NCBI GenBank assembly: GCA_012516125.1
Contig: JAAYXB010000091.1
Coordinates: 1 to 56,639 of the forward strand
Source: Bacillota bacterium
GTDB lineage: Bacteria > Bacillota > SHA-98 > UBA4971
Length of the DNA: 56,639 nucleotides
Reading direction: 5' to 3'
Both the position numbers and the translations under genes were made by a program. Numbering within the stretch: position 1 is the stretch's first letter; the number at the start of each line of letters is the position of its first letter. The notes under the pieces were generated by a model. It searched no databases. It saw only the letters and a program-made list of their open reading frames with translations, and was not told the DNA's origin. Below are positions 9,132-43,684 of this stretch, piece after piece.

Positions 9132-9287
9132 GGCTGAAGCGGCTGTGCGTCGCCGTGCGTCATCAACTGCTGCCGGGCCGCGCCGGGCCACCGCCTGAGC
9201 ACGTGGGGACCTGGATGGTCCGGGAGGAGGCGTGCTGAAGAGGCACGCCGCGGTGGGCGGAGCGCGGAGTAAGGAGGGGACACACGG

Positions 9288-26733: not shown

Positions 26734-26802
26734 TATCCCCTCCCAACGGGTGGTGATGCTGCACAAGATACAATATGCGGTGCGGCATGAACCGGCGCCA
26801 CA

Positions 26803-27738
26803 CTACTCCCCGAGCCGCCCCAGCCCTTCGAGCCCGCCAAGGTCGAACTTCGGAGTGAACGACGAGTCCTGGGAGGACGGGTCCTGCATGAAGCCGTTCT
26901 CGAGACCGATCTCTTCGAAGTGGTCCAGGACCTCTTCATACTCTTCTTGGGTCAGACGGCGGTTGATCTCGGGGAACCTCGCCGCGAGGTGTACCGGAAC
27001 ATACTGCGACATCACGCTGACGTAGGTGTCACGGGGGAGGTTCGCCCGGATCCAGTCGAGCACCCGCTTGCTGTCGTCGGCGTGGCCGGGCAGGACGAGG
27101 TGCCTTACGAGGACGCCGCGCGTCATGAGACCGTCTGGCGAGAACCTCGCGGGGCCCGCCTGCCTGTGCATCTCGAGGATCGCGCGGGTGGCACGGGCGA
27201 AGTAGTCCCGGGCCAAGGAGTAGCGGTCGGCGGCGCGCTCACTGTGGTACTTGAGGTCCGGGAGGTACACGTCCACGAGACCCTCAAGGTGTGCGAGAGA
27301 TTCGGGGAGCTCATAGGCGTTGGTGTTGTACACCACGGGGATTGCGAGACCCTGGTCTCGCGCGAGGCGAATCGCCCAAGCCACCTGGGGCAGAAAATGC
27401 GCTGGGGTGACGAGATTGATGTTGTGAGCGCCCTTTTGCGCAAGCCTCAGGAAAACCCGGGCAAGCTCTGGCACGGTAAGGTCCTTGCCAAAGCCGCCGT
27501 GGCTTAGGTCATGGTTCTGGCAGAAGACGCAACGTAAGTTGCAGTGGGAGAAGAACACGGTGCCAGAGCCACGGACGCCGCTTATGCACGGCTCTTCCCA
27601 GTGGTGAAGCGACGCCAGGGCAACCCTGGGGAGCGCACCTGCCCCGCAGAACCCCGTCTCGCCGGCAACACGGTTCCTGCCGCACGCTCGTGGGCAGAGA
27701 CGGCAACTTTGGAGCATAGCCACGAGGGGTTCCGGCAT
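26803..27738 (-). CDS. PflA/PflX-like radical SAM protein (COG1313 type)
   Basis: A 311-residue iron-sulfur protein. The radical SAM cluster motif is CNLRCVFC (CxxxCxxC). The N-terminus carries extra Cys motifs (CRLCPRACG, GFCGAG), and HHWEEPCISG precedes the core, all typical of the COG1313 'PflX' group related to pyruvate formate-lyase activase. The length fits a start at ATG 27738, although its ribosome site is poor. GTG 27813, which overlaps the yjbQ stop, is an alternative that adds 25 residues. The substrate of this family is not established. Confidence 0.88.
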   Translation of the reverse strand: MPEPLVAMLQSCRLCPRACGRNRVAGETGFCGAGALPRVALASLHHWEEPCISGVRGSGTVFFSHCNLRCVFCQNHDLSHGGFGKDLTVPELARVFLRLAQKGAHNINLVTPAHFLPQVAWAIRLARDQGLAIPVVYNTNAYELPESLAHLEGLVDVYLPDLKYHSERAADRYSLARDYFARATRAILEMHRQAGPARFSPDGLMTRGVLVRHLVLPGHADDSKRVLDWIRANLPRDTYVSVMSQYVPVHLAARFPEINRRLTQEEYEEVLDHFEEIGLENGFMQDPSSQDSSFTPKFDLGGLEGLGRLGE

Positions 27739-27805
27739 GTTGCCAAGGGCTGCCCCTGGGCAGGGTCCAGCGGCCGGCCCGCACGCCGGATATGTGTCGA
27801 GCCGG

Positions 27806-28204
27806 CTATTCACACTGCCACACCTGGACATAGACCTTTCTCGAACGTGGGCCGTCGAACTCGCAGAAGAACACACCCTGCCAGGTGCCGAGCGCAAGGT
27901 CGCCGCTCTCGACCGGAATGGTGACCGAGGATCCGACCAGCGACGCCCTGATGTGGGACGCGGCATTGCCCTCCACGTGACGGTAAGCCCCGTGCCTCGG
28001 AACCATCTTCGTAAGGGCTTCGAGGATGTCGCGCGCCACGTCGGGGTCGGCACTCTCGTTGATGGTCACGCCTGCCGTGGTGTGAGGCACGTATACCAGG
28101 CACGCGCCGCGCTGGACCCCCGACTCGCGAACGAGGCGGCGCACTTCGGCAGTTATGTCAACCACCTCGTCCTGCGCTCTCGTCCTGATGCCTATGGTGT
28201 TCAA
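27806..28204 (-). CDS. YjbQ family protein
   Basis: A 132-residue protein of the UPF0047/YjbQ family (PF01894). The conserved core is seen as [18 protein letters not shown], then [18 protein letters not shown] and [12 protein letters not shown]. Some members act as secondary thiamine-phosphate synthases; the general role is unresolved. TTG 28204 has AAAGGAG seven bases upstream. The stop codon overlaps a possible GTG start of the following radical SAM gene. Confidence 0.9.
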
Positions 28205-28240
28205 CGTCGGACTCCTTTCCTATCCTCCATGTTGTGGTAT

Positions 28241-28678
28241 CTAGCCAAGCGGCCACCCGAACGCTACAGCCGCGCCGAGCCCGACTCCCGCGAGCACCTC
28301 GAGCGGGGTGTGGCCGAGAAGCTCGCGCAGGCGCTCCTCCGGGATGCGGTGCTTCCTGTAAAGGTCGTCAACTATCCTGTTGATGATCCGCGCCTGCCTG
28401 CCGGCGGCCCGTCTGATGCCCGCTGCGTCGTAGAGCACGATGAGCGAGAGCACCGACGCCACGGCGAAAATGGGCGAGCCCCATCCCGAGATGCGGCCGA
28501 CCATCACGGACATGCTCGAGACCAAGCTGGAGTGGGAGCTTGGCATGCCGCCTGGGTTCACGAGGCGCGTGAAGTCCGGCCTTTTGTGGATGATATAGTC
28601 CACAACGAACTTGAGCACCTGGGCTGTGGCCCACGCCACAAGGGGCGCCATAAGGGCGGGGTTACGTAACATCAACAT
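28241..28678 (-). CDS. Divergent PAP2/DUF212 membrane protein (YuiD-like)
   Basis: A 145-residue membrane protein of the DUF212 family, distantly related to acid phosphatase/vanadium haloperoxidase. It has KRPDFTRLVNPGGMPSSHSS, equivalent to the phosphatase SGH box, plus DAAGIRRAAGRQA and GHTPLEVLAGV. Four transmembrane helices are likely. GTG 28684, ATG 28678 and ATG 28672 are all in frame; GAGGTG lies just before, and ATG 28678 is a compromise. Substrate unknown. Confidence 0.88.
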   Translation of the reverse strand: MLMLRNPALMAPLVAWATAQVLKFVVDYIIHKRPDFTRLVNPGGMPSSHSSLVSSMSVMVGRISGWGSPIFAVASVLSLIVLYDAAGIRRAAGRQARIINRIVDDLYRKHRIPEERLRELLGHTPLEVLAGVGLGAAVAFGWPLG

Positions 28679-28878
28679 GTTCACCTCGGGTCGGGGCGTG
28701 TGGCGAGCTTGTGCCCGCTCTGCCGTCTATCGGCTTTGTGCAAGAGCTTACTGGTCCGGTGTGCTCGGTGCTTTAGCGGCACGCCCCGGCGCTGTGTTCG
28801 TTAAGGTAGTCATCGCCGCTTCAAGGTAGTCATCGCTGCTCCACGTTGGCCGCTCCAAAAATGGACGCAGGCAAGTTC

Positions 28879-29370
28879 TCAGCCCTCGGAGCGGTCCTTG
28901 GCAATATCCGCGACCGCTCCCCCAGTGATACGCACGAGCTCCGCCGGCGCGATCCTGAACAGGCTTCGGGGAGTCCCGGCTGCGGCCCAGATTTCGTCGT
29001 GCTGAAGAAGATCCCGGTCTATGAAGATCGGCAGGGGCGATTTGAGACCGACGGGCGGGACCCCGCCTATGGCGAAACCCGTGACCTCGCGGACCGTTTC
29101 TGCGTCGGCCTTCTTGACAGGACCCCCAGCGAGGGCGGCAAGCTTCCGCTCGTCCACGCGATTCGCGCCCGACGCAATGACCATGACCGGCCGCCCGTCC
29201 GCCATGAACACCAGGCTCTTCGCTATCTGGCCGACGCTCGAGCCGACGGCCTCGGCTGCCTGTGCCGACGTGGCGGTGCTCTCCGCAAGCTCGCGCACAA
29301 CCGACGGGCACCCGAGCGCCCGGAGCGCTTCCTGCACTCTCATCGACGATGGGTGGAGCTCGCCTGCCAT
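28879..29370 (-). CDS. YbaK/EbsC-family tRNA editing-like protein
   Basis: A 163-residue single-domain protein of the YbaK/ProX aminoacyl-tRNA deacylase family (PF04073). Motifs are AQAAEAVGSSVGQIAKSLVF, the conserved Lys in this segment, then VTGFAIGGVPPVG and the final GTPRSLFRI strand. Relatives hydrolyse mischarged Cys- or Ala-tRNA(Pro). ATG 29370 follows AAGGAG; the frame is open upstream but has no site there. First gene of the minus-strand run. Confidence 0.88.
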   Translation of the reverse strand: MAGELHPSSMRVQEALRALGCPSVVRELAESTATSAQAAEAVGSSVGQIAKSLVFMADGRPVMVIASGANRVDERKLAALAGGPVKKADAETVREVTGFAIGGVPPVGLKSPLPIFIDRDLLQHDEIWAAAGTPRSLFRIAPAELVRITGGAVADIAKDRSEG

Positions 29371-29831
29371 GCGATCATCTCCTTGTCTTGCGCCTGGTTG
29401 CTGCAGAACCTGTACTTGCCTGGGGCACTTCACATGGACACCTGACGCGGCTGAGGGGCTATTGCCGTCAGCTCGGGCGGCTATCCGCTCTATTCCATCT
29501 TAGTTTGCGGGGGCGCGAGTGTCAACGTCCGTGCCGTCCAATGGTCCATTGCGGCGGTAGCTGTCCGCCGTCCCGCACCTGCTATCTGGTGGCGCCCTCC
29601 GCGTGCTCGTTGTGCGCGGGCGCACGTGTGCCCCGCAAGCGGACCCAGCCTGGTAATCCGCCTGCCCTTTCGCCACGCTAGCATTCCGACCCACCCGTGG
29701 TATGATTGTCCCGGAATGTTCTGAAGGGTTGCCTTCCACGGTGCCGACGGGGTTGCCTTCCAGGGCGCCGACACGGCGTAACATCCGGAGCGGGCAGGAG
29801 CGGGCAGGCAGCCAGCACAGGCGGTGGGAAC

Positions 29832-30037
29832 ATGGACGCAAGCGAACTTGCACAGCGCATTCGCGGAGGAGAGAACCTGCACACGGACTTCTCAGCCGCG
29901 CGGGCCTCGTCACGGGGATCGGCAGCGGGGTGTTCCGCATGATTCAGCTCGTCCGCGATGCAGTAGGTCGCGAACCCGAACTCGGCGAGGAAGAGGCGGA
30001 GTTCGTGGTCCGCATCCCGAGACCCTCCCTGCGGTAG
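29832..30037 (+). pseudogene. Remnant of an AlbA/Schlafen-domain (RecG-like) gene
   Basis: From ATG 29832 one frame reads MDASELAQRIRGGENLHTDF, resembling the start of AlbA_2/Schlafen-type proteins (usually ...GEN...EFK). Near 29893 the similarity jumps to another frame, which reads GLVTGIGSGVFRMIQLV...ELGEEEAEFVVRIPR and ends at 30037. That matches the C-terminus of the same protein type. Thus only the two ends of a gene of usually 400 or more codons remain, joined by an internal deletion with a frame change. A decayed accessory gene at the edge of the defence-like island. Confidence 0.6.
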
Positions 30038-30119
30038 GGTAGGTCATCCCGCGGTGAAAGGCCCCCTCCGTCGCGAGAGCCCCGGTTGCAGCGGGTTACA
30101 CACAGATGCCTTTCTGTCT

Positions 30120-30189
30120 GCCTCATGTGCCCTTTCTCTGTAGCGCTTAGCCCATAGCGGTTTCACACAGGTGCACCGTCACATGAGGC
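30120..30189 (+). other. 70-base structure closed by a 10-bp perfect inverted repeat
   Basis: GCCTCATGTG (30120-30129) and CACATGAGGC (30180-30189) are perfectly complementary. Inside, CTGT and ACAG can form a smaller stem. It could be a structured RNA, a cruciform or an element boundary. No family is recognised, and no U-run follows. Confidence 0.4.
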
Positions 30190-30434
30190 CCCTCGCGTGC
30201 ATGCGAATAGGACGCTAGAAGCGTGCTCCGAAACTCGCGCGCGACTCTAGCGACTACAGGCTCAGCCCGCAAATCCGCAGCTAGGCGGCGTACCGATTAT
30301 CCCATGGGCGCGGCACGGGCGGTTTTGGAGCAGACTACTAGGCACGTCGATGCTTGCTCCCTACGGTCATTGCTCTTGTAGATAGAAAGCACGGATGCAC
30401 GAATGGCAACGCACTGGTATCGGAAGAAGGATAC

Positions 30435-30456
30435 GTTACTGTCGAGTCGAAGTAAC
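30435..30456. promoter_or_regulatory. Inverted repeat GTTACT-N10-AGTAAC, possible operator
   Basis: Perfect six-base arms (30435-30440 and 30451-30456) about 50 bases upstream of the first methyltransferase gene. The size and position suit a dimeric repressor site, but no regulator gene is present in the island. Confidence 0.4.
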
Positions 30457-30503
30457 TATCGATGACAGCGAGTAATGCCCAGCTACTGCAACGAAGGTGA
30501 GGT

Positions 30504-33500
30504 GTGGTCGTGGTTGTTGATCTGGACAGGGCTGCCGCGGAGCTTGCGCCGACCGTGGCGAAGAGCCTACTCAGCGCAGCCCGCGCTGGCGGCACTGAGG
30601 CGGATTTCCGCCGGGAAGCCGCCCAGATTCTTGAGGAGGCAGCAAGAGAGGTTGGGCTCACCATTGTGCCCAGAGACGAATTCTCAGTGGCACGCGGCCG
30701 AGTGGACTCGTTGTACAATCGGCTCATACTTGAATACAAGCGTCCGGGCATCCTGGCCCCACGCCTTCAGGCGAGTGCCAACCGCGCTGCTGTCCAACAG
30801 GTTAAGGATTACATCCAGGACGTGGCCCGCCGAGAGCGAAGAGAGACCCACCGGCTCGCGGGAGTTGCTACTGACGGGTTCTTCTTCATCTTTGTCCGCC
30901 GCGTCGGGGAGGGTTGGGCAGAGCCCGAGGTCCTCCCTGTCAATGAGGCTTCGGTCGAACGGTTCCTTCGCACGCTATTCGCCCTCTCAGCGGGTACGGC
31001 CCTCGTTCCTGAGAACCTTGTAGCTGACTTCGGCCCCGGGACTTGGCGTGCCCGGAGGGCGGTGGGAGCTCTTTACGGTGCTCTCGACGTTGATAGGCAT
31101 CTGCTAGTCGGCCGACTGTTCGACCAATGGCGCACGTTCTTTTGTGAGGCTACCGACTATAGAGAATGGGCTGGGCGAATACAGTCCAAGAAGGAGTTCC
31201 GGTCATTCGTAGACGGCATGGGACTCGACCCGAGCCGCTGTGACCCTGCCAGGGTATTCTTTGCGCTCCACACCTATTACGCGCTGCTCATCAAACTGGT
31301 GGCCGCTGTGGCGGCGGCGCGTTTCGCTGGCGGGAAGAACGGCTTCCTTACGGCCCTGGTATCGAAGGAGGGAGCCGCGTTGCGGGAGCAGTTCGCGGAG
31401 ATCGAACGCGGCGGGGTCTTCCGAGAATACGGCATTCGCAACTTCCTCGAAGGTGACTTCTTCGGATGGTACCTCGCTGCATGGGACACCCACATCGAAG
31501 AGGCAACGAGTGCACTTGTAAGGCGTCTCGCTGACTACGATCCCGGGACCCTCGAGCTTGCACCGGAGAATGCGCGAGATCTCCTCAAGAAGCTCTACCA
31601 CAACTTGCTTCCCCGCGAGATCCGCCATGACCTGGGCGAGTACTACACTCCTGACTGGCTGGCCGAACGCCTTGTCATCCAGACGCTGGGCGAGGCGGAC
31701 CTGGGCGACCCCACGAAACGGGTACTCGATCCCGCCTGTGGCTCGGGTACGTTCCTTGTGATACTCATCAAGCATATCAAGGAACGCGCAGCGCGCAAGA
31801 GGATGGAGCCCAGCCGGGTGCTACAGCTTATTCTCGAGAACGTAGTCGGCATCGATCTCAACCCCCTCGCTGTGATAGCTGCACGTACTAATTACTTAAT
31901 CGCGCTTGGGGATCTTCTGAAGGCTCAGACCGCGGACATCAATATCCCCGTCTACCAGGCGGACTCGATCCTTGCCCCCTCGCAAGGAACCGGGCTCTAC
32001 GACGGCAACGTATATCCCCTTAAGACTTCCGTGGGAGTCTTTAAGATTCCAGCTGTCTTTGCTAGGCGCGACCGCATGGATGTGCTCTCGAACGTGCTGG
32101 ACGAGGCCGTAGAGGCAGGTGTCCACGAGAGTTCATTCGTGTCGAGACTCGCTGAGGTCGCGCGACTTGACGCCGAGGAACTACAGGCGGCAGAGGACGA
32201 CCTGAAGACCCTGTACCGACGGCTCCGCGAGCTGCATGATGAGGGTCTTGACGGCGTGTGGGCGCGGATCATCAAGAATGCCTTCGCCCCGCTTTTCCTT
32301 GAGCCGTGCCATTACGTGGTTGGGAATCCACCATGGATCAATTGGGAGAACCTGCCAGATGAGTACAGGCTGGATACGAAGCCCCTTTGGGAGCACTATG
32401 GGCTATTCCCTCATCGTGGCATGGACACCATCCTGGGCAAGGGTAAGAAAGACATCTCCATGTTGATGACTTACGTTGCTGCTGACCGGTACCTGAGGCG
32501 CGGCGGCAAGCTGGGGTTCGTCCTGTCTCAAAGCTTGTTCAAGACTTCTGGGGCCGGTCAGGGCTTCAGGCGATTCTTGCTTCCCGATAAAACGCCATTT
32601 GGACCTCTTGTGGTGGATGACATGGTTGAGTTGGATCCGTTCGAAGGGGCCTCAAACCGCACGGCGGTAGCCGTGTTTGCGAAAGGACATGCCGTAAGGT
32701 ACCCTGTGTCGTATCAGTACTGGAAGAAACGTGCCACCGGACGGGGCAGCTCTATCGGCTTCGACACACCCTATGAGGAGGTAACGCGGGAGAAGATAAC
32801 CTATCGAAAGTGGTTTGCTGCGCCCATCGACAGTACCGACGAGACATCTGCATGGATTACAGCAGGGCCAAAGGCGCTGAGAGCGTTGTCAAAGATACTC
32901 GGTCCGTCTCACTACTCGGCTTGCGCAGGTTCGTACACCGGCGGGGCGAATGCGGTGTTCTGGGTCGAGGTCATGGGAATACGTCCAGGCGGGCTTGCGA
33001 TCGTGTCCAACCTGACCGAAGGCGCCAAGAAGAAGGTCCTTCGGGTCCAGGCGGCCATGGAGGCGGACCTTTTGTATCCTTTGCTCCGCGGGCGCGATGT
33101 AAGGCGATGGTCTGCTATCCCGTCGGCGTACATCATCATGACCCAAGACCCGGAGAAGCGTCGCGGGATAGACGTGGAGACCATGGAAACACGGTACCCC
33201 AGGGCGCACTCGTACTTGAAGCGGTTCGAAGAAGCGCTCCGCAGCAGACGTGACCGAGGAACAAGGGGCCTGATTGAGAAGGGCGCGCCCTTCTGGTCAA
33301 TCTTCGGAGTTGGCTCCCATACACTCGCGCAATGGAAAGTCGTCTGGCGAGAGGTTGCCAATCAACTCGACGCGGCCGTACTAGGGATGGCCCCGGTGGG
33401 ACCGACCGAGAAGCCGGTCGTGCCGGATCATACCTGCATCATGATCGACTGTTCGAGCGAAGAAGAGGCTCATTACGTTTGTGCTGCACTGAACTCCGCA

Positions 33501-33773
33501 CCAGCGAGACTGGCAATCAAGAACCACATAGTCTTGCACCCTGACCCTCACGTGCTCAACAATGTGAGGCTGCCGAAGTTTACCAGGAAAGATCCGGTGC
33601 ATCGTGCGTTGGCTCAACTCTCTGAAGAAGCCCACAGGCTTGTAGCGCCCCCCGACGAAAAGGGTGGCGAGCTCCAGCGCGTAGAGGAAGAGATCGACCG
33701 GAAGGCGGCTGCGCTCTGGGGTCTGACTGATGACGAGCTCCAGGAAATCGAGGCGTGTCTGAAGGAGGCGTGA
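30504..33773 (+). CDS. Nuclease-methyltransferase fusion (type IIG-like, N6-adenine class)
   Basis: A 1089-residue protein. The N-terminus has a PD-(D/E)xK nuclease pattern, D68 then E77-Y-K79 (VDSLYNRLILEYKRPG), as in HsdR and type IIG enzymes. A helical middle follows. The methyltransferase core has SAM motif I DPACGSGTF (D409) and catalytic motif IV NPPW (N608), i.e. N6-adenine methylation. The last about 350 residues should include target recognition. GTG 30504 is the frame's first start; GTG 30510 suits AAGGTGAGG better. The next gene begins two bases after its stop. Nuclease plus modification in one chain suggests self-contained restriction, here embedded in a NurA-HerA operon. Confidence 0.82.
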   Translation: MVVVVDLDRAAAELAPTVAKSLLSAARAGGTEADFRREAAQILEEAAREVGLTIVPRDEFSVARGRVDSLYNRLILEYKRPGILAPRLQASANRAAVQQVKDYIQDVARRERRETHRLAGVATDGFFFIFVRRVGEGWAEPEVLPVNEASVERFLRTLFALSAGTALVPENLVADFGPGTWRARRAVGALYGALDVDRHLLVGRLFDQWRTFFCEATDYREWAGRIQSKKEFRSFVDGMGLDPSRCDPARVFFALHTYYALLIKLVAAVAAARFAGGKNGFLTALVSKEGAALREQFAEIERGGVFREYGIRNFLEGDFFGWYLAAWDTHIEEATSALVRRLADYDPGTLELAPENARDLLKKLYHNLLPREIRHDLGEYYTPDWLAERLVIQTLGEADLGDPTKRVLDPACGSGTFLVILIKHIKERAARKRMEPSRVLQLILENVVGIDLNPLAVIAARTNYLIALGDLLKAQTADINIPVYQADSILAPSQGTGLYDGNVYPLKTSVGVFKIPAVFARRDRMDVLSNVLDEAVEAGVHESSFVSRLAEVARLDAEELQAAEDDLKTLYRRLRELHDEGLDGVWARIIKNAFAPLFLEPCHYVVGNPPWINWENLPDEYRLDTKPLWEHYGLFPHRGMDTILGKGKKDISMLMTYVAADRYLRRGGKLGFVLSQSLFKTSGAGQGFRRFLLPDKTPFGPLVVDDMVELDPFEGASNRTAVAVFAKGHAVRYPVSYQYWKKRATGRGSSIGFDTPYEEVTREKITYRKWFAAPIDSTDETSAWITAGPKALRALSKILGPSHYSACAGSYTGGANAVFWVEVMGIRPGGLAIVSNLTEGAKKKVLRVQAAMEADLLYPLLRGRDVRRWSAIPSAYIIMTQDPEKRRGIDVETMETRYPRAHSYLKRFEEALRSRRDRGTRGLIEKGAPFWSIFGVGSHTLAQWKVVWREVANQLDAAVLGMAPVGPTEKPVVPDHTCIMIDCSSEEEAHYVCAALNSAPARLAIKNHIVLHPDPHVLNNVRLPKFTRKDPVHRALAQLSEEAHRLVAPPDEKGGELQRVEEEIDRKAAALWGLTDDELQEIEACLKEA

Positions 33774-33775
33774 GA

Positions 33776-34894
33776 ATGGCTAACCCCTTCGCTCCCCTTC
33801 GACCAGCGCTCGAATTCATCGCTCGAGAAGGGCAGGTGTTGCCCGCCACAGGGCAGGCGATGGAGGACCTCATGCGTCCGGACCACGCGGAAGTCCTTGA
33901 CGGACTGCGGATGGGTGAGGACAAGCTGCTTGACGTGATCATGGAGTCGCCTAACCGGGAGCCGTATGTGGAGCTTAGACCCCTTTATCGGACTCACAAG
34001 CATCTGTTGCGATACTTCCTGGATGGGTCCGCACGGACCTTCTTTCTCGGAGACGTGATCGAGGGAACACGGAGGACCCCGGTTCACGTCGCCCAGGTGG
34101 GCGCGGCAGCCGTCTTCAGGAAGGATAGTGGCCAGGTTCATGTCGCACGCTCTACGCACCGTATCGTCCTGATGCTGGATAAGCAGGCGGTCTCATTCGG
34201 AGACAGAGTCGAAGAGCTTGTGAGGGAAGCTGGGCCGGGGTTCATGTTCCATGACACCATGGAAGAGGATGGCGAAACGGAGAGAACGTCGCCGGGCAAA
34301 GAGCCGCGGTCCAGGGCTGCGCACAAGGCGCATCATATCATGGCACAGATTGAGGAAGAACTTGGCCGGTCTCTGCCCCGTGAGAGCGGCCAGTGGCTGG
34401 TGCTCGACGGGAGTCTGGGCAAGGACCTCTACCCATGGCGTGCGGTGAAAGAGTTTCTTGGGGTTACCAAGTCCTTCAGCCGGGAACCGCTCTTCAAGCT
34501 GCCGGGTGCCCGAGGCGGGGCCCGAGTGAACCTTTACGGGCTTCTTGCTGGGCTTCCGTTTTCCGCGAGAACGTGCGCCTTTTCGGCAAGGTCAGGTCAG
34601 GTGGTGGTCTGGTACGTCCGTATACGCGAGCAGCGCCACCTGGACTACCCACTCATGGGAGTGGTCAAGGTGGAATACCCCAACCCGAGCCAGGAGCCCG
34701 TTTCTTCCGAGCTGATCGACGAGCTGTCCTCAGCCCTGGTGGCTGAGCGGCAGGCAACCCCGCACGGCAAAGACGTACGCTGGCACGCCCATCTCTACGC
34801 TATCTACCTGGCTGAGACCGCGGTGAAGAACGGGTTCGTTTCCGTGGAGGTATTGAAAGCCGGGATAAAGTGGCCTGGAGCGCAAGGCACCTAA
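33776..34894 (+). CDS. NurA-domain nuclease
   Basis: A 372-residue protein with the acidic motifs of NurA (PF09376): FLDGSARTFFLGD near the N-terminus (D83), a second LVLDGSL (D211), GVTKSFSREPLF, and late strands GVVKVEYPN and LYAIYLAETA. NurA is a 5'-3' nuclease that works inside a ring formed by the HerA ATPase. ATG 33776 has AAGGAGG seven bases upstream and lies two bases after the preceding stop. The HerA-type gene follows directly. Residues about 160-190 are an acidic and basic linker. Confidence 0.78.
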   Translation: MANPFAPLRPALEFIAREGQVLPATGQAMEDLMRPDHAEVLDGLRMGEDKLLDVIMESPNREPYVELRPLYRTHKHLLRYFLDGSARTFFLGDVIEGTRRTPVHVAQVGAAAVFRKDSGQVHVARSTHRIVLMLDKQAVSFGDRVEELVREAGPGFMFHDTMEEDGETERTSPGKEPRSRAAHKAHHIMAQIEEELGRSLPRESGQWLVLDGSLGKDLYPWRAVKEFLGVTKSFSREPLFKLPGARGGARVNLYGLLAGLPFSARTCAFSARSGQVVVWYVRIREQRHLDYPLMGVVKVEYPNPSQEPVSSELIDELSSALVAERQATPHGKDVRWHAHLYAIYLAETAVKNGFVSVEVLKAGIKWPGAQGT

Positions 34895-34913
34895 CGAACA
34901 GGGGGAAATGTCG

Positions 34914-36680
34914 ATGCTGGACAACGAGTCGCGTGAAACCGCCGGGAAAGGGCAGCAAGGCTCTCGAGAGCCCATCGGGAAAGCCTCTGCAACTGAGCGC
35001 GAGCCTAATTCCTCAGAGAAGTTCTGTTTCTGGCTCGCGCCCGGGCGTATAGTCAACCCGTTCGACATTGTTGAAGCGGAGCAGATGGAGAACACCTGGA
35101 CTTTCGGTCTGGTGACTAACATTCGTCAACTCACCGATGCTCCTTCTCACCTGTCGAACTACATATCAAATGACTTCGGCAGCACTGAGGCGCTTCCCCA
35201 GACACCTCGGCAGGGGGCCAACGTGGCCGACGTGAGCGTGCTTGCCAACTATGACCCATCGGAGCCGAAAAGGTTCCCAATGGGGATCTACATGCCTGTT
35301 CAGAGCGATTCCCCGGTCTATTTTGCAGATGAGGCAGGCATTCACGTGGCCCTGGGCATCGACAAGATGTTCGAGTATGAGAAGGAACACAAGGAGAGAA
35401 TTGCCATACCAGCTGGCCTTATCAGGATGTCATGCGGGACGAAAGCCCGCGTTTACCTGGACAAAAGATATGTCCTGGGCCCGGAGGGCGCTCACGTGAA
35501 CATATCAGGGATCTCAGGTCTTGCGACCAAAACGTCGTATGCGATGTTCCTCATACAGTCAATTCTCCAGACTGTTGGTGCAGAGAAGATAGCGGTGATC
35601 CTCCTGAACGTGAAGCAGAACGACCTTCTGGTTATCGACAAGGATCGCAAGGGCATGAAACCTGAAGAGCATGACATGTGGGACGATCTGGGTCTTGAAC
35701 CCAGGCCGTTCGAGAACGTGCGGTACCTCCTTCCGTGGGGGAAACAGACTGCTACGACGGGGATGCCGAACTGTTTTGGCGAGCCGCCGGACCACTTCGT
35801 GACGTATGCGTACTCTCTTGAGGATGTCATCGGAGACAGGACTCATCCAGGGCCGGGCCTCGGACTTCTCATCCGTGTTCCAGACCCGTGGGACACCCTC
35901 GGAGCTCTCATTGGGGAGATCCACCAGGGAATACTGAACAATGAACCGAAGTGGCGCGACATCCGCACGTGGAATGACCTACTCACAAAGAAACCTCTCA
36001 TGAACGAAGGGGTGCCGCAACAGGTAGGCGAGGTCAGGGCTTCGTCTGTGGGACGGTTCGTGCGGGTCCTCCGCCGGGTGGTCCGCAACAGACAATCAGG
36101 TGTTTTCGTAGAGCAGCGAGCGGCCCGCCGGGCAGTCAACCTGGGGGAAGAGATCCGGCAAGTCCAGGGCGGGCAGACTGTTGTGGTTGACGTGGCGAAG
36201 CTGGAAGAGGAGGAACGGGCACTTGTTTTCGGACACATCATTCAGGAAGTGTACAGCATGTACGCGGAAGCCTCCATAGATGACCGGTCAACCTTGCCCG
36301 AAAAGGTCATCATCTTTGTCGACGAGCTGAATAAGTATGCGCCACAGAGAAAGGGAGAGGGTGAATCATCCGTACTTGACTATGTCCTCGACATCGCAGC
36401 ACGGGGCAGGTCTCTGGGAGTGGTTCTCATCTCGGCCGAGCAGTTCATGAGCGAGGTTCATCCACAGGTAGTGGGCAACTGTGCGACGAAGGTCATAGGG
36501 AGAAGCGATTCCTCTGAACTGTCGGACGCTGCTTATCGGTTCGTGTCCCAGGACGTTAAATCGCACCTGACCCGGCTTGAAAAGGGCGAGCTGCTGCTTT
36601 CGCATCCGATATACAGACAGCCTGTGAAGATCGAGTTCCCCAGGCCTGCGTACGAGGCTATAGGGCACGGCCGATCCTAG
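34914..36680 (+). CDS. HerA/DUF87-type hexameric ATPase
   Basis: A 588-residue ATPase. After a charged N-terminal about 35 residues comes a HAS-barrel-like beta region, then a P-loop reading SGLATKTS (K206) in which the usual Gly before Lys is Thr. Walker B is VIIFVDELNKYAP (D470, E471). A sensor/arginine region follows (AARGRSLGVVLISAEQ, GRSDSSEL), typical of HerA-FtsK translocases. With NurA it should form a DNA-translocating and degrading complex. ATG 34914 has GGGGGA eight bases upstream; ATG 34908 is too close to that site. Confidence 0.82.
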   Translation: MLDNESRETAGKGQQGSREPIGKASATEREPNSSEKFCFWLAPGRIVNPFDIVEAEQMENTWTFGLVTNIRQLTDAPSHLSNYISNDFGSTEALPQTPRQGANVADVSVLANYDPSEPKRFPMGIYMPVQSDSPVYFADEAGIHVALGIDKMFEYEKEHKERIAIPAGLIRMSCGTKARVYLDKRYVLGPEGAHVNISGISGLATKTSYAMFLIQSILQTVGAEKIAVILLNVKQNDLLVIDKDRKGMKPEEHDMWDDLGLEPRPFENVRYLLPWGKQTATTGMPNCFGEPPDHFVTYAYSLEDVIGDRTHPGPGLGLLIRVPDPWDTLGALIGEIHQGILNNEPKWRDIRTWNDLLTKKPLMNEGVPQQVGEVRASSVGRFVRVLRRVVRNRQSGVFVEQRAARRAVNLGEEIRQVQGGQTVVVDVAKLEEEERALVFGHIIQEVYSMYAEASIDDRSTLPEKVIIFVDELNKYAPQRKGEGESSVLDYVLDIAARGRSLGVVLISAEQFMSEVHPQVVGNCATKVIGRSDSSELSDAAYRFVSQDVKSHLTRLEKGELLLSHPIYRQPVKIEFPRPAYEAIGHGRS

Positions 36681-36701
36681 AAAGCGAACGGTGGTGCTGC
36701 G

Positions 36702-37997
36702 ATGGCGGTTGCGTATGTCATGGAGGAGCGGCTGGAGTGGCGTACGTGGGTGACCCCAAGGCCGCTCGAGGCCAAGCCGGTGCATCGGTGGTATGTCTTC
36801 CCACACAGCTTCACGAGCGAACTTGTGAAGGGCCTGGCTCAGGAGTGGGAGCTTGGTCAGGGCGATAGCATCCTGGACCCGTTCGTCGGTGCCGGGACAA
36901 CAGTGCTTTCTGCGAAGGAAATGGGAATCAGCGCGACGGGTTACGACCTCTCGCCTCTTGCGGTGCTGGCAGCCAAAGTGAAGACCACAGACTACCAGGT
37001 CGAAGCGCTCCGCGAGGCGTGGCAGGTGCTTAAGGGCACTATCGTTGAGTACCTGCGCTATCAAAGGCGGGGCGACCTGTCGAAGCCGTATGCGGAGCTC
37101 GTCCAAAGGGCGTTACCAGGAGGCTTGCTTGAAGCCTTCGATGCCGTCTTGAACCACATCTGTTTGCTTCCCGCGAGCGAAGAGGAAAAGGACTTCTTCC
37201 GGCTGGCGGTGCTTGGCCTGGTCCCGCGTTACAGCCGAGCTCGGGCAACCGGCGGGTGGCTCAAATGGGTGGACGAGACTGAGGGTGTCTCAACCATTCC
37301 GGACGCGCTTGAGCAGCGGGTGGAACTCATGCTTGAAGATGTGGAAAGGGCCACGAAGATGCGGCCTGATTCCGACCATACAGCCTGCCGCGTGGAAAGG
37401 GCTGACGCACGATGCCTTCCTGATCCAGATGGGACGTTTTCCGCAGTTATCACCTCACCGCCCTATCCAAATCGCCATGATTACACCAGGGTCTTCGGTG
37501 TTGAGCTTATGCTCGCGTTCCTGGACTGGGAAGGGACGCGTCAACTGCGATACCAGAGCTTCCATTCGCATCCGGAGGCGCACCCGGTTCGGCCTCGCAT
37601 AAAGGGTTACAGCGTTCCAGAGGAACTTGCGCTCTTGCTGCGCAAGATCAGGCAAGGCCGGAGCGACCCTAGGGTGCTTGCGATGCTTGACGGTTATTTC
37701 CGTGACGTGTTCTTGTGTCTCCGCGAGTTGGCGCGGGTTTGCAGGCCAGGGGCGCGGATCGCTCTTGTAGTGGGAAACGCGCAGTACTATGGGGAGCCAG
37801 TCCCAGTGGACCAGCTCGTCGCTGGAATAGGTGAGCAGGCCGACCTTCTGTGCGAACGCATTCTCGTGGTGCGTTACCGAGGCAACAGTGCGCAGCAGAT
37901 GGGAAGATACGGGCGCAATCCCTCGCGGGAGAGCGTCGTGGTTTTTCGTTCGCCCGGTCCGGGAAGCTCAAAGAATAAAGAAGTCTTACAGAATTGA
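36702..37997 (+). CDS. DNA methyltransferase with SPPY motif
   Basis: A 431-residue SAM-dependent DNA methyltransferase. Motif I is DPFVGAGTT (D59-T67). Catalytic motif IV is TSPPYPNR (S252-Y255), found in N4-cytosine and some N6-adenine enzymes. About 185 residues lie between the motifs, so the order is motif I, putative recognition region, motif IV. It starts 21 bases after the HerA stop. In context it is probably the protective modification enzyme of the module, or a second specificity alongside the fusion protein. Codon use is less GC-biased than in the genes after 38 kb. Confidence 0.85.
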   Translation: MAVAYVMEERLEWRTWVTPRPLEAKPVHRWYVFPHSFTSELVKGLAQEWELGQGDSILDPFVGAGTTVLSAKEMGISATGYDLSPLAVLAAKVKTTDYQVEALREAWQVLKGTIVEYLRYQRRGDLSKPYAELVQRALPGGLLEAFDAVLNHICLLPASEEEKDFFRLAVLGLVPRYSRARATGGWLKWVDETEGVSTIPDALEQRVELMLEDVERATKMRPDSDHTACRVERADARCLPDPDGTFSAVITSPPYPNRHDYTRVFGVELMLAFLDWEGTRQLRYQSFHSHPEAHPVRPRIKGYSVPEELALLLRKIRQGRSDPRVLAMLDGYFRDVFLCLRELARVCRPGARIALVVGNAQYYGEPVPVDQLVAGIGEQADLLCERILVVRYRGNSAQQMGRYGRNPSRESVVVFRSPGPGSSKNKEVLQN

Positions 37998-38008
37998 CGT
38001 GAAAGGCG

Positions 38009-38416
38009 GTGGCGCGGGTGGCTGGCTACGAGTCCGCGGAGGAACTTCAGAGGGTGGTGCAACACCTGGTAGAACTCATGAAAGCTGACGAGAGGGTTCT
38101 GAAGGCGAGCACAGGTTCGACTTTCACAGTGGGATTCGCCATCACGGACCTCGACGAGACCTTCCTCCTCACCTTCAAGGACGGCCAGATAGGCGGAGAG
38201 GTGGGCGCGGACATCACGCCCGCCCAGATCAAGCTCACGATGGATAGCGAGACCTTCGATGGCGTGTTCGGCGGCGAGGTGGACCCCATGGGCGCGGCGA
38301 TGTCGGGTCAGATCACGTTCTCTGGAGACCTGGGCCTTGCCATGAACCTCCTTGGGGTGGTGGACGACCTGCGCAGGATCTACAAGGCTGCCAGGGCGCA
38401 GGCGGGGACCGCCTGA
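38009..38416 (+). CDS. SCP2 sterol-carrier-domain protein
   Basis: A 135-residue SCP2-like domain (PF02036): five-stranded sheet and helices with GFAITDLDETFLLTFKDGQI, a central ADITPAQIKLTMD and GDLGLAMNLLGVV. The domain binds lipids or acyl chains. GTG 38009 is used; GTG 38018 has a better distance from GAAAGG. It begins 11 bases after the methyltransferase but returns to the high-GC codon use of the efflux genes downstream, so it belongs functionally with them. A lipid-handling role beside a MacB-like exporter is plausible but not proven. Confidence 0.8.
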   Translation: MARVAGYESAEELQRVVQHLVELMKADERVLKASTGSTFTVGFAITDLDETFLLTFKDGQIGGEVGADITPAQIKLTMDSETFDGVFGGEVDPMGAAMSGQITFSGDLGLAMNLLGVVDDLRRIYKAARAQAGTA

Positions 38417-38498
38417 ACGCATTCTCACTCGAGCGCTTAGTCGGAACGACCCGGGACCATGCATTCCGGCCTCGTGCGTCCACCAGGGGAGTGATGCC

Positions 38499-39902
38499 AT
38501 GAGAATCCGGGACCTGCTGTCAGTGGCGGTTCGCAATTCGCGTCTGCGGCTTGTCGAGTCGTTCCTCATCGTGCTCGGCATAGCCCTGGGCGTCGCCGTC
38601 GTAGCGGCATTCGGCGGGCTCGTCGGAAGCGTGGGCGCGCAGGCCCGCGTGTTTGCCGAAAGCCCGGTGGCGTGGGAGATAACGGTGATTCCGCGGGAGG
38701 AGGACTACTCGGCGCTCTGGGATGGAAACAGCGGCCAGGTGCCTGCTGTGGCGGTAGGCCCCGCCGGCGCACGGCCTGTCCGCCTCACCATGCGCGACCT
38801 CGAGCGGTTCAGGAACGGTGTGACGTCCGCGAAATGCGTCTACACGTGCGAAAACATCGGCCTGCCGCTGCGGCCTGCGAACCCCTCTTCAGGCGACGGG
38901 CCGGGTGCGCAGGGGGAGACAACCGGGGCTCCGAAGAGTGACGGGGAAGACTCCAAGGCCGTCCGCATCAACCAGCTGGAGGAACAGGGATTCGTAGAAC
39001 TCGTGGCCACGGTCCCCGATTACTTCCGGGCATACGGCCTGAAGCCGCGCGAAGGATCGTTCTTCGTTGACTCCGACGTCGCGTCCGGGACCAGAGTCAT
39101 GGTCGTCGGGGATGAGCTGGCGAGGCGCCTCGCCGGCGACACATCCCCGTTGGGGCAAGAGTTGATAATGGGATCACCGGGCGGCGGCAGCGTGCAGGAT
39201 GCACCGCGGTACACGGTGATAGGCGTGCTCGAGTCCCTTTCGCCTCCCTCCGACGGGGGGCGAGGCGGACGTTCGGCCCCCCCGGGACCGCTCACCCACC
39301 TCGATAGGCTTGGGTTCATACCGGTAACCTCCGCGCCGGGCTACAGCGGCGAAGATGAGCAGCTAAGCGAGATCCGAGTCATGCCGGCATCGGCGGACGC
39401 CGTGGCGACCACCATTGATGAGCTGAGGCGGTTTATCGAACGGGAGTACCAGGGTAGACTCACGATCCGGTCCGAGATCGACAACATGAGACGAGCCCTG
39501 CGCGAGATGCGCGGTATCGCAGTTGGTATCCTGGTTATCGCGTCAGCCGGGATCGTGATCGCCTCCATCAACATCCTCAACCTCATGATGGCCCGTGTCC
39601 TTCGGCGCACGAAGGCCATTGGGATATCCATTGCGCTCGGCGCAAGCCGCGGAGACGTGTTCGCGCAACTCCTTACCGAGTCGCTGGTCCTCGGGATCGT
39701 AGGAGGCGTCATAGGGATCGGCCTTGCGTACGTTGCAACGGGCCTCATTTCCAGGGTAACTCAGGGGCTGGCGGTCACTGTCGGCGCATGGGGCATCCTT
39801 GCGGGGACCGGAGCGTCGCTCGTCGCGAGCGTGGTGTTCGGGCTGTATCCGGCTCACCTGGCCGCCAGGACCGTTGCGGCGGACGCGCTGAGGGGGGATT
39901 AG
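38499..39902 (+). CDS. MacB/FtsX-type ABC transporter permease 1
   Basis: A 467-residue permease with the MacB layout: one transmembrane helix (about 18-42), a large extracytoplasmic MacB-like domain (to about 335), then three transmembrane helices with GIAVGILVIASAGIVIASINI and a loop RRTKAIGISIALGASRGDV, the usual ATPase contact. ATG 38499 follows GGGGAG by eight bases; the longer frame upstream is not coding-like. It works with the second permease, adaptor and ATPase that follow. Confidence 0.9.
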   Translation: MRIRDLLSVAVRNSRLRLVESFLIVLGIALGVAVVAAFGGLVGSVGAQARVFAESPVAWEITVIPREEDYSALWDGNSGQVPAVAVGPAGARPVRLTMRDLERFRNGVTSAKCVYTCENIGLPLRPANPSSGDGPGAQGETTGAPKSDGEDSKAVRINQLEEQGFVELVATVPDYFRAYGLKPREGSFFVDSDVASGTRVMVVGDELARRLAGDTSPLGQELIMGSPGGGSVQDAPRYTVIGVLESLSPPSDGGRGGRSAPPGPLTHLDRLGFIPVTSAPGYSGEDEQLSEIRVMPASADAVATTIDELRRFIEREYQGRLTIRSEIDNMRRALREMRGIAVGILVIASAGIVIASINILNLMMARVLRRTKAIGISIALGASRGDVFAQLLTESLVLGIVGGVIGIGLAYVATGLISRVTQGLAVTVGAWGILAGTGASLVASVVFGLYPAHLAARTVAADALRGD

Positions 39903-39906
39903 GGCG

Positions 39907-41328
39907 ATGCTCCCGATAATCCTCACATCCGCATATCACAACGTCAGGCGCCGCCCGTTCCGGGCAGCCCTCACGATCCTGCAGATCGGCATCGGGATCG
40001 CGTGCGTGGTGTCGGTCTTGAGCTACAGGATGAACATCTCGGCGCGGATAGACCGCATAATGCGCGAGGACGAGGATGTGGTCGTCGTTTCCGGGGGCAC
40101 CGAGACGCGAAACGAGTACGGAGGCTGGACCCGCGAGACCTATGCGGTGTTCTCCGACCAGGACGTCGAGGAGGTCGCCTCCTCGCCCGACGTTGAAGCC
40201 GTGTCGCCATTCACGCCGCAGTGGATGATGATGGTCGAGGCTGCGGGGACTCGCTACCTCGTGAACGGCGGGGCATCGGTCGGGCCCGACTATGCCCGGG
40301 CCTACGGGCTCGAGATGGTCGAGGGCGCGTTCATCACCCGATCAGATGTAGAGAGCCGGTCGAATGTGGTCGTCGTATCGGAGAGTCTTGCGAAGATTCT
40401 ATTCGGCAAGCCACCATACGCGGGAAAGACCATCGAGGTTGTGCCGAGGCAACCCGCGGTGTCACGTGAGACGGGGGGCGAGAGCCCTGCGCCTCCGATG
40501 GCCTACCGGGTGATCGGCGTGTTCCGAGAGAACCCGAACTGGGCCGAGACTATCTTGTTTTCGCCGTTCCGAAAGGTTGTGCCGCTACTGTGGCCAGCGA
40601 CGGTGAACCCGTCCATGACAATGGGCTTTTCCTTCTCCAGTGCCAGGTCGCCCGGGGGAAACACGTACCCTTACAGGACCCTGGTGATCAAGGCGAAGGC
40701 CGGCCGGGGCGCAGCAGTCAGAGAGTATGTGAGGGCCATGGTATCCGGCCGCAGCAGGCCGGGGAAGCCGTGGGCGGGGGCGGCCCAGCTCGGCGATGGC
40801 GATGGCGATGTCGCCCCGGCGGGAGGGAAGTACGGCGACGATGCCTCCGCGGCGTCGGTCATCTTCGAGACGTCTGCGGATCGGGCGCGGATGTACGCTC
40901 GGTCCATGTTCGACCTTACATTGCTTCTCGGCGGCGCGGTCTTCATCGCCCTCGTAGTGAGCGCCATCGGCATACTCAGCATCATGATGGTCGGCGTGGT
41001 CGAGCGGTCCAGGGAGGTGGGCCTCCGGCGGGCGCTCGGGGCGTCGCGCGCGTCCATCGTCCTGCAGTTCACGTTCGACTCCGTAGCCCTGTCTCTCGTC
41101 GGAGGCGTCCTGGGCATCCTCGCATCCCTGTGGCTTTATCCGTTCCTGGACACCACAGTATTCACGAGGATCGGCCTCTTCGCAGGCGCCCGGGTGAGCG
41201 GGGGCCTGTCTCCCGTGGCGGCGCTCGCAGGCCTTGGCTTCGCTGCCGTGTTCGGAGCTGTGTTCGGGTTCGTGCCGGCGCTCCAGGCCGCAAGGGTCGA
41301 GCCGGCGGAGATCCTGAGAGAGCTGTGA
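39907..41328 (+). CDS. MacB/FtsX-type ABC transporter permease 2
   Basis: A 473-residue paralogue of the preceding permease with the same layout: helix about 17-40, extracytoplasmic domain, and three C-terminal helices with the contact loop ERSREVGLRRALGASRASI. It starts four bases after permease 1 ends, suggesting translational coupling and a heterodimer. Residues about 285-305 include a Gly/Asp-rich low-complexity stretch. Confidence 0.9.
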   Translation: MLPIILTSAYHNVRRRPFRAALTILQIGIGIACVVSVLSYRMNISARIDRIMREDEDVVVVSGGTETRNEYGGWTRETYAVFSDQDVEEVASSPDVEAVSPFTPQWMMMVEAAGTRYLVNGGASVGPDYARAYGLEMVEGAFITRSDVESRSNVVVVSESLAKILFGKPPYAGKTIEVVPRQPAVSRETGGESPAPPMAYRVIGVFRENPNWAETILFSPFRKVVPLLWPATVNPSMTMGFSFSSARSPGGNTYPYRTLVIKAKAGRGAAVREYVRAMVSGRSRPGKPWAGAAQLGDGDGDVAPAGGKYGDDASAASVIFETSADRARMYARSMFDLTLLLGGAVFIALVVSAIGILSIMMVGVVERSREVGLRRALGASRASIVLQFTFDSVALSLVGGVLGILASLWLYPFLDTTVFTRIGLFAGARVSGGLSPVAALAGLGFAAVFGAVFGFVPALQAARVEPAEILREL

Positions 41329-41359
41329 GGAGCGAGCTATCAAGGTGGGAGGGCGAGCC

Positions 41360-42691
41360 ATGGGACATGAACAGCAGCGGACCGACGCCGGTGCGAAGCG
41401 GTTCGAGCCCATAGTGAGGCGGCCGCCCGCGGCGCGTGGGGGACGGCTTCGGAGAGACGCGGGGCTTGTGGTGTTTGTCGTGGTCGTGCTCGGCGTGGTG
41501 GTGGCCGTGCCCGCATACTTCCTCATTCCCCGTGAGAGGCCTTACGTGCTCGCAAACTACACGTATGCTGAGGTCAGGCTCGGGGAATTCGAAGACGTGG
41601 TGGGCGCACCCGGCACGGTCGTGCCAGCTCACACCGTGGACGTCAGGGCAGGTTCCGGCGGCGTGGTTCAGGAGATCATGGTGGCGCCCGGGGAGCAGGT
41701 AAGCCTGGGCGCTCCCATCTGTCAGCTTCACTCCCCGGAGCTTGTGACGAGGCGCGAGGACGCTCGTCGCCAGGTGCTTTCGGCCGAGGACAGCCTTGCG
41801 AAGGCGCGCCTGGACGCGTCCCAGTCGGAGGAGCGTCTCGAGCGCGACCTCGCCGAGGCGACAAGGGCCCTTGCAGCGGCGCAGGCGAAGCTCGCGGATG
41901 CGCGGAAGCTCTACGAGGCGGGCGCGATCCCGAGGAAACAGGTGGACGATGCCCAGGCCGAGGCGGACCGCGCGCGGTCCCAGGTCGAGGCCAGGGAACA
42001 GGAGCTCTCCGCGGCGAAGTCGGTGGCCGCGCTCCAGATCGAGACTTGCACGCGGCAGCTCGAGGCGGCGCGGTCGAGCCTGAAAGCTATAGAGGACGCC
42101 ATCGCCAGCCTCGTGCTGCGATCGCCCATCCAGGGGACGGTCCTCGACGTGCCCGTTGTGCTGGGTGCGACGGTGAGCCAGGGGACCGTAGTGGCTCAGG
42201 TGGCAGACCTGGGGCGTCTCGTGGTAAAGGCGAAGGTCAGCTCGTCCGACGTGCAGCACGTCACCGTCGGCCAGCGAGCCACGGTCAGCCTCGGCGGGGC
42301 AAGCGTCGGCGGGCGAGTGCAGTCCGTGGCGCCCAGGGCCGAGGAGAGCGGGCAGGGCACCACCGTGGAGGTCGTCATCGAACTCGACTCCCCGCCGAGG
42401 GACGTGCCGCCGAATAGCGCGGTGTACGCCGAGATCCAGGTGAAAGAGCGCTCTGGAGTGCCGTATCTTCCGCGCGGCGCGTTTCTGGCAAGTGGGCAGG
42501 AGATGTTCGTTTACGTGATTGAAGGAAACCGGGCATATCAACGGGACGTGCGGTTCGGCAGGGCGTACGGCAATGCCATCGAGGTCCTTGACGGGCTTTC
42601 CGTTGGCGAGAAGGTGATCACGTCCTCGTACGAGGAATTCAAGGACAGGCGCGACATCAGGGTACTGCCTGAGGGAGGGAGAGCGCAGTGA
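41360..42691 (+). CDS. HlyD/MacA-type periplasmic adaptor
   Basis: A 443-residue membrane-fusion protein. A single transmembrane anchor (about 36-57) precedes the lipoyl halves (GTVVPAHTVDVRAGSGGVVQ and SPIQGTVLDVPVV), which flank a long coiled-coil hairpin (about 130-245). A beta-barrel and membrane-proximal domain follow (VGQRATVSL, VYAEIQVKE). ATG 41360 follows GGTGGGAGGG. The TGA overlaps the GTG start of the ATPase gene. It bridges the exporter to extracytoplasmic partners. Confidence 0.9.
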   Translation: MGHEQQRTDAGAKRFEPIVRRPPAARGGRLRRDAGLVVFVVVVLGVVVAVPAYFLIPRERPYVLANYTYAEVRLGEFEDVVGAPGTVVPAHTVDVRAGSGGVVQEIMVAPGEQVSLGAPICQLHSPELVTRREDARRQVLSAEDSLAKARLDASQSEERLERDLAEATRALAAAQAKLADARKLYEAGAIPRKQVDDAQAEADRARSQVEAREQELSAAKSVAALQIETCTRQLEAARSSLKAIEDAIASLVLRSPIQGTVLDVPVVLGATVSQGTVVAQVADLGRLVVKAKVSSSDVQHVTVGQRATVSLGGASVGGRVQSVAPRAEESGQGTTVEVVIELDSPPRDVPPNSAVYAEIQVKERSGVPYLPRGAFLASGQEMFVYVIEGNRAYQRDVRFGRAYGNAIEVLDGLSVGEKVITSSYEEFKDRRDIRVLPEGGRAQ

Positions 42692-43392
42692 GCGAGCAGC
42701 GCGAGAACGGGGCTTTCATCCAGCTTCGCGACATCGCCAAGGTATATGCCATGGGCAAGGTGGATGTGGCGGCCCTGTCCGGGGTAACGCTTGATGTGGA
42801 GCGCGGAGAGTACGTGGCGGTGATGGGACCATCCGGCTCGGGCAAGACCACGCTCCTCAACGTACTGGGAGGGCTCGACGTGCCGACCTCAGGCAAGTAC
42901 CTGCTCGAGTCGGTCGACATATCTAAACTGCCCGATAAGGAACTTGCGAGAATTCGTTGTCACCACTTCGGGTTCGTATTCCAGAGCTACAACCTCTTCC
43001 CCGAATTCAACGCTCTCGAGAACGTGATGGTGCCCATGATGTACGCGGGCGTCGGTGCGACTGAGCGGAGGAGGCGAGCGGCGGAATTGCTCGAGTCGCT
43101 TGGCATGGGTCCAAGGATGCGGCACTATCCGAGCCAGCTTTCCGGCGGCGAGCAGCAGCGGGTGGCCATCGCGAGGGCGCTTGCCAACGACCCCGACGTC
43201 ATCCTGGCGGATGAGCCCACAGGCAACCTCGCGACGCAGCAGGGTAAGGAGATCCTTGGCATCTTCGACGATCTCAACGCACGGGGCGTCACGATCGTGA
43301 TGGTGACGCATGACGAGGGCGTCGCGGCCCATGCGAAGAGGCTAGTGCTCCTTCGGGACGGACGGGTTGAGAGCGATGAGCGAGTACCGTAG
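42688..43392 (+). CDS. LolD/MacB-type ABC transporter ATP-binding protein
   Basis: A 234-residue ATPase: Walker A GPSGSGKTT, Q-loop FVFQSYNLFPEF, signature LSGGEQQRVAIA and Walker B VILADEPTGNL. This is the class that drives FtsX-type permeases. GTG 42688 overlaps the adaptor stop (GTGA). Last gene of the efflux operon; the substrate is unknown and could be a lipid, peptide or antibiotic. Confidence 0.92.
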   Translation: MSEQRENGAFIQLRDIAKVYAMGKVDVAALSGVTLDVERGEYVAVMGPSGSGKTTLLNVLGGLDVPTSGKYLLESVDISKLPDKELARIRCHHFGFVFQSYNLFPEFNALENVMVPMMYAGVGATERRRRAAELLESLGMGPRMRHYPSQLSGGEQQRVAIARALANDPDVILADEPTGNLATQQGKEILGIFDDLNARGVTIVMVTHDEGVAAHAKRLVLLRDGRVESDERVP

Positions 43393-43684
43393 GGAGCGAG
43401 TGTCGTAGGGAGCGAGTGGCGTAGTGCACATCTGCATCCGCCGGTCCGCTCGGTCGCGGCAAGTATTGGAGGCTTTGTGGGCGCCGCGTGGGGCCCGGCG
43501 GCCGGCGGCGGCAGCGTACGGACTACGTGAGGTGCTGGGGTGCTTTCAACTTACGGGAGGGGTTGCGGGTGACTCAAAGAGAAGAGCGCAACACCGGAAG
43601 CCAAGCAACTAGTGGAAAAGGAGGCAAGGATTAACGCCCCCTTCACTCAAGTCATGTGGATCAATCCGAAAGGCGTAAGAGAAC
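43393..43684. other. Intergenic region, 292 bases
   Basis: Begins with a short tandem duplication of GTAGGGAGCGAGT. Bases 43550-43572 (CTTACGGGAGGGGTTGC...) resemble one arm of the palindromic repeat at 21694. No terminator or clear promoter is seen. Confidence 0.45.

Follow-up and report, generated by a model that had tools for sequence, protein, structure and literature searches.

A probable tdtA-type operon joining a type IIG enzyme, NurA-HerA and a second methyltransferase on a genomic island of a Bacillota bacterium

A 56,639-nucleotide contig of a Bacillota bacterium (the window) carries four genes that very probably form a stand-alone, horizontally acquired operon of the tdtA type, as described in Thermus. 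The identities of these genes, their intact catalytic motifs, their conservation as a unit and their insertion as an island can be read off the sequence directly. As the best explanation overall, we propose a tdtA-type operon that would cut DNA, then pump it, for donation to other cells; we regard this proposal as evenly balanced between right and wrong.

The four open reading frames lie on the plus strand, separated by gaps of 2, 13 and 21 bases, and the genes are likely co-transcribed. They have a GC3 of 0.67-0.71 as compared to 0.68-0.85 in their neighbors, and both the tight packing and the less GC-biased codon use described in a previous sequence-only reading of this locus were thereby confirmed. 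The first protein (P1; 30504-33773, 1089 aa) is a type IIG/IIC restriction-modification (RM) enzyme of the TspDTI subfamily, as judged from its motifs and from a full-length match of 1191 bits to the PADLOC model REase_MTase_IIG (PDLC03630), along with Pfam matches to N6_Mtase, Eco57I and MmeI. Its predicted layout comprises a PD-(D/E)XK nuclease, a helical linker, an N6-adenine methyltransferase (MTase) and a target-recognition domain (TRD); the AlphaFold model of P1 is of low confidence (pLDDT 50, pTM 0.33). For the second gene (P2; 33776-34894, 372 aa) we took the ATG at 33776 as the start, the mechanical ORF beginning at 33755. Searches of P2 against Pfam and NCBIfam returned zero family matches. 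Its AlphaFold model (pLDDT 72, pTM 0.75) had a single match of E<1e-3 when compared to the PDB with Foldseek, namely the NurA chain of the Deinococcus radiodurans HerA-NurA complex (7f6d_G, 1.6e-8), identifying P2 as a bacterial-type NurA nuclease. HerA of the same complex (7f6d_B) was the top PDB sequence match (E 6e-40) of the third protein (P3; 34908-36680, 590 aa), a hexameric DNA-translocating ATPase of the HerA/TdtA type with Walker A and B motifs. The fourth protein (P4; 36702-37997, 431 aa) is a second DNA amino-MTase, of the SPPY type (Pfam PF01555 N6_N4_Mtase, E 5e-8; PADLOC MTase_II, 195 bits). Identities other than NurA for P2 and other than an amino-MTase for P4 were ruled out by the Foldseek and Pfam results, respectively. 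All the gene assignments of the sequence-only reading, i.e., a nuclease-N6-adenine MTase fusion of type IIG, NurA, HerA and an SPPY MTase, therefore stand.

Catalytic residues are intact throughout. In P1, D68, E77 and K79 were unchanged in nine orthologues as well as in a wider set of 10 core orthologues, and the MTase motifs DPACGSG (409-415) and NPPW (608-611) were kept across orthologues in the form DPxCGSG and NPPW. Invariant among the 10 core orthologues were also D83-G-S, D211-G and RWHxHxY (335-341) of P2, and Walker A (GISGLATKT) and Walker B (FVDELNKYAP) of P3, while the P4 motifs TSPPYPNRHDYTR and DPFxGAGTT were kept in 10/10. The operon hence combines a NurA fold bearing the catalytic D/D/H residues with the Walker A and B motifs of HerA. 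In the divergent operons L043, L025, L044 and L045, the P1 site reads D-x8-E-x-E, a Thermus-like ExE. The window branch of P1, by comparison, has a predicted canonical D-ExK nuclease site, which is new for this operon family. Mean pairwise identity was highest for HerA (81%), followed by P1 (68%), and lowest for P4 (60%). The pairwise divergence patterns of these three proteins correlate with one another (r 0.83-0.85), as expected if the unit moves together.

The operon sits on an 8.25-kb genomic island (29734-37982), delimited by blastn against two congeners. Window positions 26606-29733 (94.5% identity) and 37983-44091 (92.6%) are joined at positions 10687/10717 of contig L023 of congener G004, so that the flanks match this relative at 92-95% and the island is replaced there by about 30 bases; a second congener (G005, contig L024) likewise lacks the island genes. 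None of the five congeners searched encodes a HerA of the P3 type. The island has a GC content of 59.1%, compared to 63.9% in the rest of the window, and contains only the four operon genes and one remnant. The latter (29832-30037, plus strand), upstream of the operon, probably derives from an AlbA_2/HATPase_c_4 (RecG-like) protein, whose C-terminus it resembles, as suggested by a match to HATPase_c_4 (PF13749, E 0.0027) that falls below the cut-off. No integrase, tRNA target or other gene of an integrative and conjugative element (ICE) was found within the island (29734-37982), nor any tRNA in the whole window.

To what extent the four genes are kept together elsewhere was assessed by cross-genome searches. 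A genome scan returned nine loci with a HerA 77-83% identical to P3, in records labeled as Armatimonadota, Bacillota, Nitrospirota, Pseudomonadota, Thermodesulfobacteriota, Omnitrophota and Planctomycetota; most of these are metagenome bins that may be misplaced, and one (L008, Moorella sulfitireducens) is a named strain. The four-gene order was kept in 9/9 fetched loci (L005 begins inside P1 at a contig end), and the arrangement is therefore not due to chance. No fifth conserved gene recurs beside the operon in these nine loci. All four genes are likewise present in L041, the more divergent L043 and the viral contig L025, giving a total of 13 loci including the window, in at least seven phyla, all with the same gene order. 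Given that 12 loci besides the window, spread over at least seven phyla, have this arrangement and that no flanking gene is common to them, we regard the four-gene set as a real, horizontally moving unit. Searches of plasmid and phage records yielded only distant HerA matches. Within one of the loci (L004), the NurA (8802-9941) is about 54-57% identical to its orthologues and the HerA about 81-86%, suggesting that NurA was probably replaced inside this operon.

Linkage was also evident from the P1 side. Across 398 same-phylum genomes, all seven intact P1-type proteins scoring >1228 bits adjoin NurA-HerA, and the next P1 matches (721 bits or less) occur in genomes without a P3-type HerA. The exception is G301, which harbors a decayed copy (L046 1172-5510) with a P1 split by a stop and a truncated HerA joined near a P4 fragment. 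Two of the seven (L044 1927-10753 and L045 7247-16025) have the order NurA-HerA-IIG and lack P4, implying that the core link is that of the IIG enzyme with NurA-HerA; downstream of both are DUF3800 and B12/radical-SAM genes, 75-77% identical between the two genomes. P1-like genes are further present on two viral contigs with no NurA-HerA in the available stretch, one on L077 at 49% across residues 166-1088 and the other on L078 at 39%. The relative on L077 (1584-4373) apparently lacks the nuclease domain.

NurA-HerA pairs also recur in another context. We observed a second conserved cluster, NurA-HerA-GHKL (HATPase_c_3) ATPase-B12/radical-SAM, which is devoid of IIG or methylase genes and occurs in bacterial genomes and viral contigs (L021 5713-11367; L026 4875-10666; L027 4735-11142; L028 4823-11156; L029 3805-10574; L047 98-6104; L048 7554-13933). 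When the L021 copy was searched with PADLOC, its ATPase gave a weak TmtA match only and its radical-SAM protein zero matches. In the phage Marinitoga camini virus 1 (L049 5927-9753), genes for NurA and HerA lie close to a radical-SAM gene whose relatives belong to this second cluster.

The known counterpart of the window operon is that of T. thermophilus HB27, consisting of TTC1877 (a Tth111II-type IIG enzyme, 1106 aa), TTC1878 (NurA-like, 377 aa), tdtA (a HerA/FtsK hexameric ATPase) and TTC1880 (a pfam01555 methylase, 410 aa)(PMC5365140). TTC1877-TTC1880 are co-transcribed, with gaps of 4, 2 and -4 bp, and the ATPase was shown to form a hexamer (PMC5365140). TdtA, NurA and the IIG enzyme are needed for DNA donation by transjugation, which falls to zero without tdtA, by 4-5 logs without nurA and by about 3 logs without the IIG gene (PMC5365140); deletion of the methylase had minor effects only (PMC7767461). 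The operon resides on the low-GC element ICETh1, which is missing from strain HB8 (PMC5365140; Blesa et al. 2017), and homologous clusters were reported in T. scotoductus and Chloracidobacterium (PMC5365140).

By analogy, the C-terminal TRD of P1 would recognize an asymmetric site, at which P1 would methylate adenine; where this site is unmodified, P1 would nick or cut nearby. NurA-HerA, which in bacteria performs end resection (PMC9960219), would then load at the P1-made break, with the HerA ring pumping the duplex and NurA trimming it. P1 cuts may thus serve as NurA-HerA entry points, and the window member may do the same job as its Thermus counterpart, while P4 would add an accessory modification at a target of its own. 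The most likely output here would be DNA that is processed and exported so that other cells can receive it, which is what genetic work has shown in Thermus. We rank donation first because it is the only output that has been tested; tests of members outside Thermus were not found in the literature searched. ComEC, the recipient-side competence channel, was present in 7/7 hosts tested, and lends only weak support to donation since it is near-universal. The host additionally encodes AddA, so neither donation nor restriction is excluded by missing partners. That donation rather than restriction is the main output in the window host strikes us as a coin toss, or marginally less.

An alternative reading sees the operon as a restriction defense, in which P1 would cut unmodified incoming DNA at its recognition site and NurA-HerA would load on the ends to destroy it; host sites would be shielded by P1 (perhaps P4) methylation, and the module would bring its own end-degrading motor. 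That the core orthologues keep every catalytic residue of the nuclease, the methylase, the ATPase and NurA unchanged is consistent with such a function. So is the behavior of the P1 specificity region. Comparing L003 with L041, NurA, HerA and P4 are 93.8%, 93.5% and 87.5% identical, respectively. In 40-aa blocks, the identity of P1 is about 74-100% throughout except in residues 881-1040, where it drops to 30-50%, marking this stretch as an exchanged TRD. Two P1 TRD classes can be distinguished by eight fixed differences, all within residues 951-1015, a split that is the most extreme of the 56 possible for the eight sequences compared; in the same sequences, NurA, HerA and P4 show no fixed class differences. 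P4 thus fails to track the changing specificity of P1. Its constancy upon TRD exchange tells against P4 being the cognate MTase for the second strand at the variable P1 site, and likewise against the two-layer restriction suggested in the sequence-only reading if the second layer is simply to modify the same site.

Genomic neighborhoods speak to the same alternative. In Omnitrophota, the L009 operon is immediately bordered by PDC-M38A/B genes on one side and by a GmrSD/PD-T4-2-like gene on the other, and single defense-like neighbors (HEPN, TIR and GajB-like UvrD) accompany L004, L043 and L041, although most other flanks are metabolic genes. TRD exchange and the placement of the L009 module between defense genes fit restriction better than donation, and both count in favor of the two-layer idea. 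Against this, the sole genetic tests of the operon found DNA donation, and a phage-defense test of the operon was not found in the literature searched. With AddA already in the host, there is, moreover, no missing end-processing enzyme to replace, ruling out the module as a substitute for absent AddAB. Restriction accordingly ranks directly behind donation, because specificity exchange is typical of restriction and at least one copy lies among defense genes; we judge it a serious contender that falls somewhat short of an even chance. More tentatively still, the cassettes outside ICEs may represent a distinct restriction system, which would couple an entry cut by a specificity-switching IIG enzyme to a dedicated NurA-HerA motor degrading the invader, with Thermus donation as a re-use thereof (or the reverse). 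Loss of a type IIG gene removes both of its activities together, so that killing upon its loss would not be expected. It is for this reason, and because HerA as the most conserved component (81%, compared to P1 at 68% and P4 at 60%) suggests selection on the translocase, that we consider it very unlikely that the operon is a selfish mobile RM cassette, kept by P1-mediated post-segregational killing and using NurA-HerA mainly to process breaks for its spread, despite the sporadic distribution, the empty site in congeners, the decayed copy in G301 and the four genes on viral contig L025.

As for other known systems, BREX, DISARM and Dnd (PglZ-PglX, DrmABC, DndBCDE) were rejected, given PADLOC/NCBIfam matches far below the cut-offs and confined to the MTase domain; none of their additional core genes was found in the conserved block of the nine loci. 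MADS (mad1-mad8) was likewise dismissed on account of weak, superfamily-level mad2/mad8 matches and the lack of a further conserved neighbor. HerA-SIR2, HerA-DUF4297, MADS mad8 and DndH resemble the window operon in that a HerA-superfamily ATPase lies beside a nuclease, yet the similarity is at superfamily level only (P3 matched mad8 with E 7e-13 and the PADLOC HerA models with E 4e-12 or weaker), and the effectors differ. D. radiodurans NurA-HerA (7f6d), the only structural match of P2 and the best sequence match of P3, is an end-resection complex (PMC9960219), with no IIG enzyme or methylase described alongside it, unlike in the window. P1 shares with TspDTI, Tth111II/TthHB27I and TsoI a length of about 1,100 aa, the nuclease-helical-MTase-TRD layout and the motifs D-x8-E-x-(E/K), DPACGSG and NPPW. 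The predicted catalytic residues of the TspDTI subfamily are D66, E75 and E77, with ExE in Thermus and ExK in putative homologues, and DPACGSG and NPPW are its MTase motifs (PMC3384240); unlike TspDTI, P1 has K for E at the last catalytic position.

The closest likeness is to the tdtA operon of ICETh1. Both comprise IIG, NurA, HerA/TdtA and PF01555 methylase genes in the same order on one strand, near-contiguous and of similar lengths, on a low-GC island absent from relatives. This likeness to TTC1877-TTC1880 was judged from published composition, order, sizes and motifs as opposed to sequence alignment, and PDLC03630 matches were too widespread in control genomes to inform on Thermus. The window copy differs from ICETh1 in having neither an integrase nor a tRNA attachment site and in the size of its island (8.25 kb versus 14.9 kb), and from the Thermus enzymes (D-ExE) in the D-ExK nuclease site of P1 and in its non-Thermus host. 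The sequence-only reading could not match the set to a known system, and had named an existing system of exactly this composition as what would speak against its proposal; the tdtA operon has that composition and order (PMC5365140, PMC7767461), so the impression of an unknown system was false and the set is one already described in Thermus. New here are the broad spread without ICE genes, the D-ExK branch, and TRD exchange with NurA, HerA and P4 retained. A transjugation operon known experimentally from Thermus only, with two relatives in print, now extends to at least seven phyla as a compact, ICE-free cassette, in which the translocase is near-constant and the TRD of the IIG enzyme is exchanged. 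This raises a testable question: do tdtA-type operons serve as DNA-export machines across many bacteria, or are they restriction systems put to use for export in Thermus?
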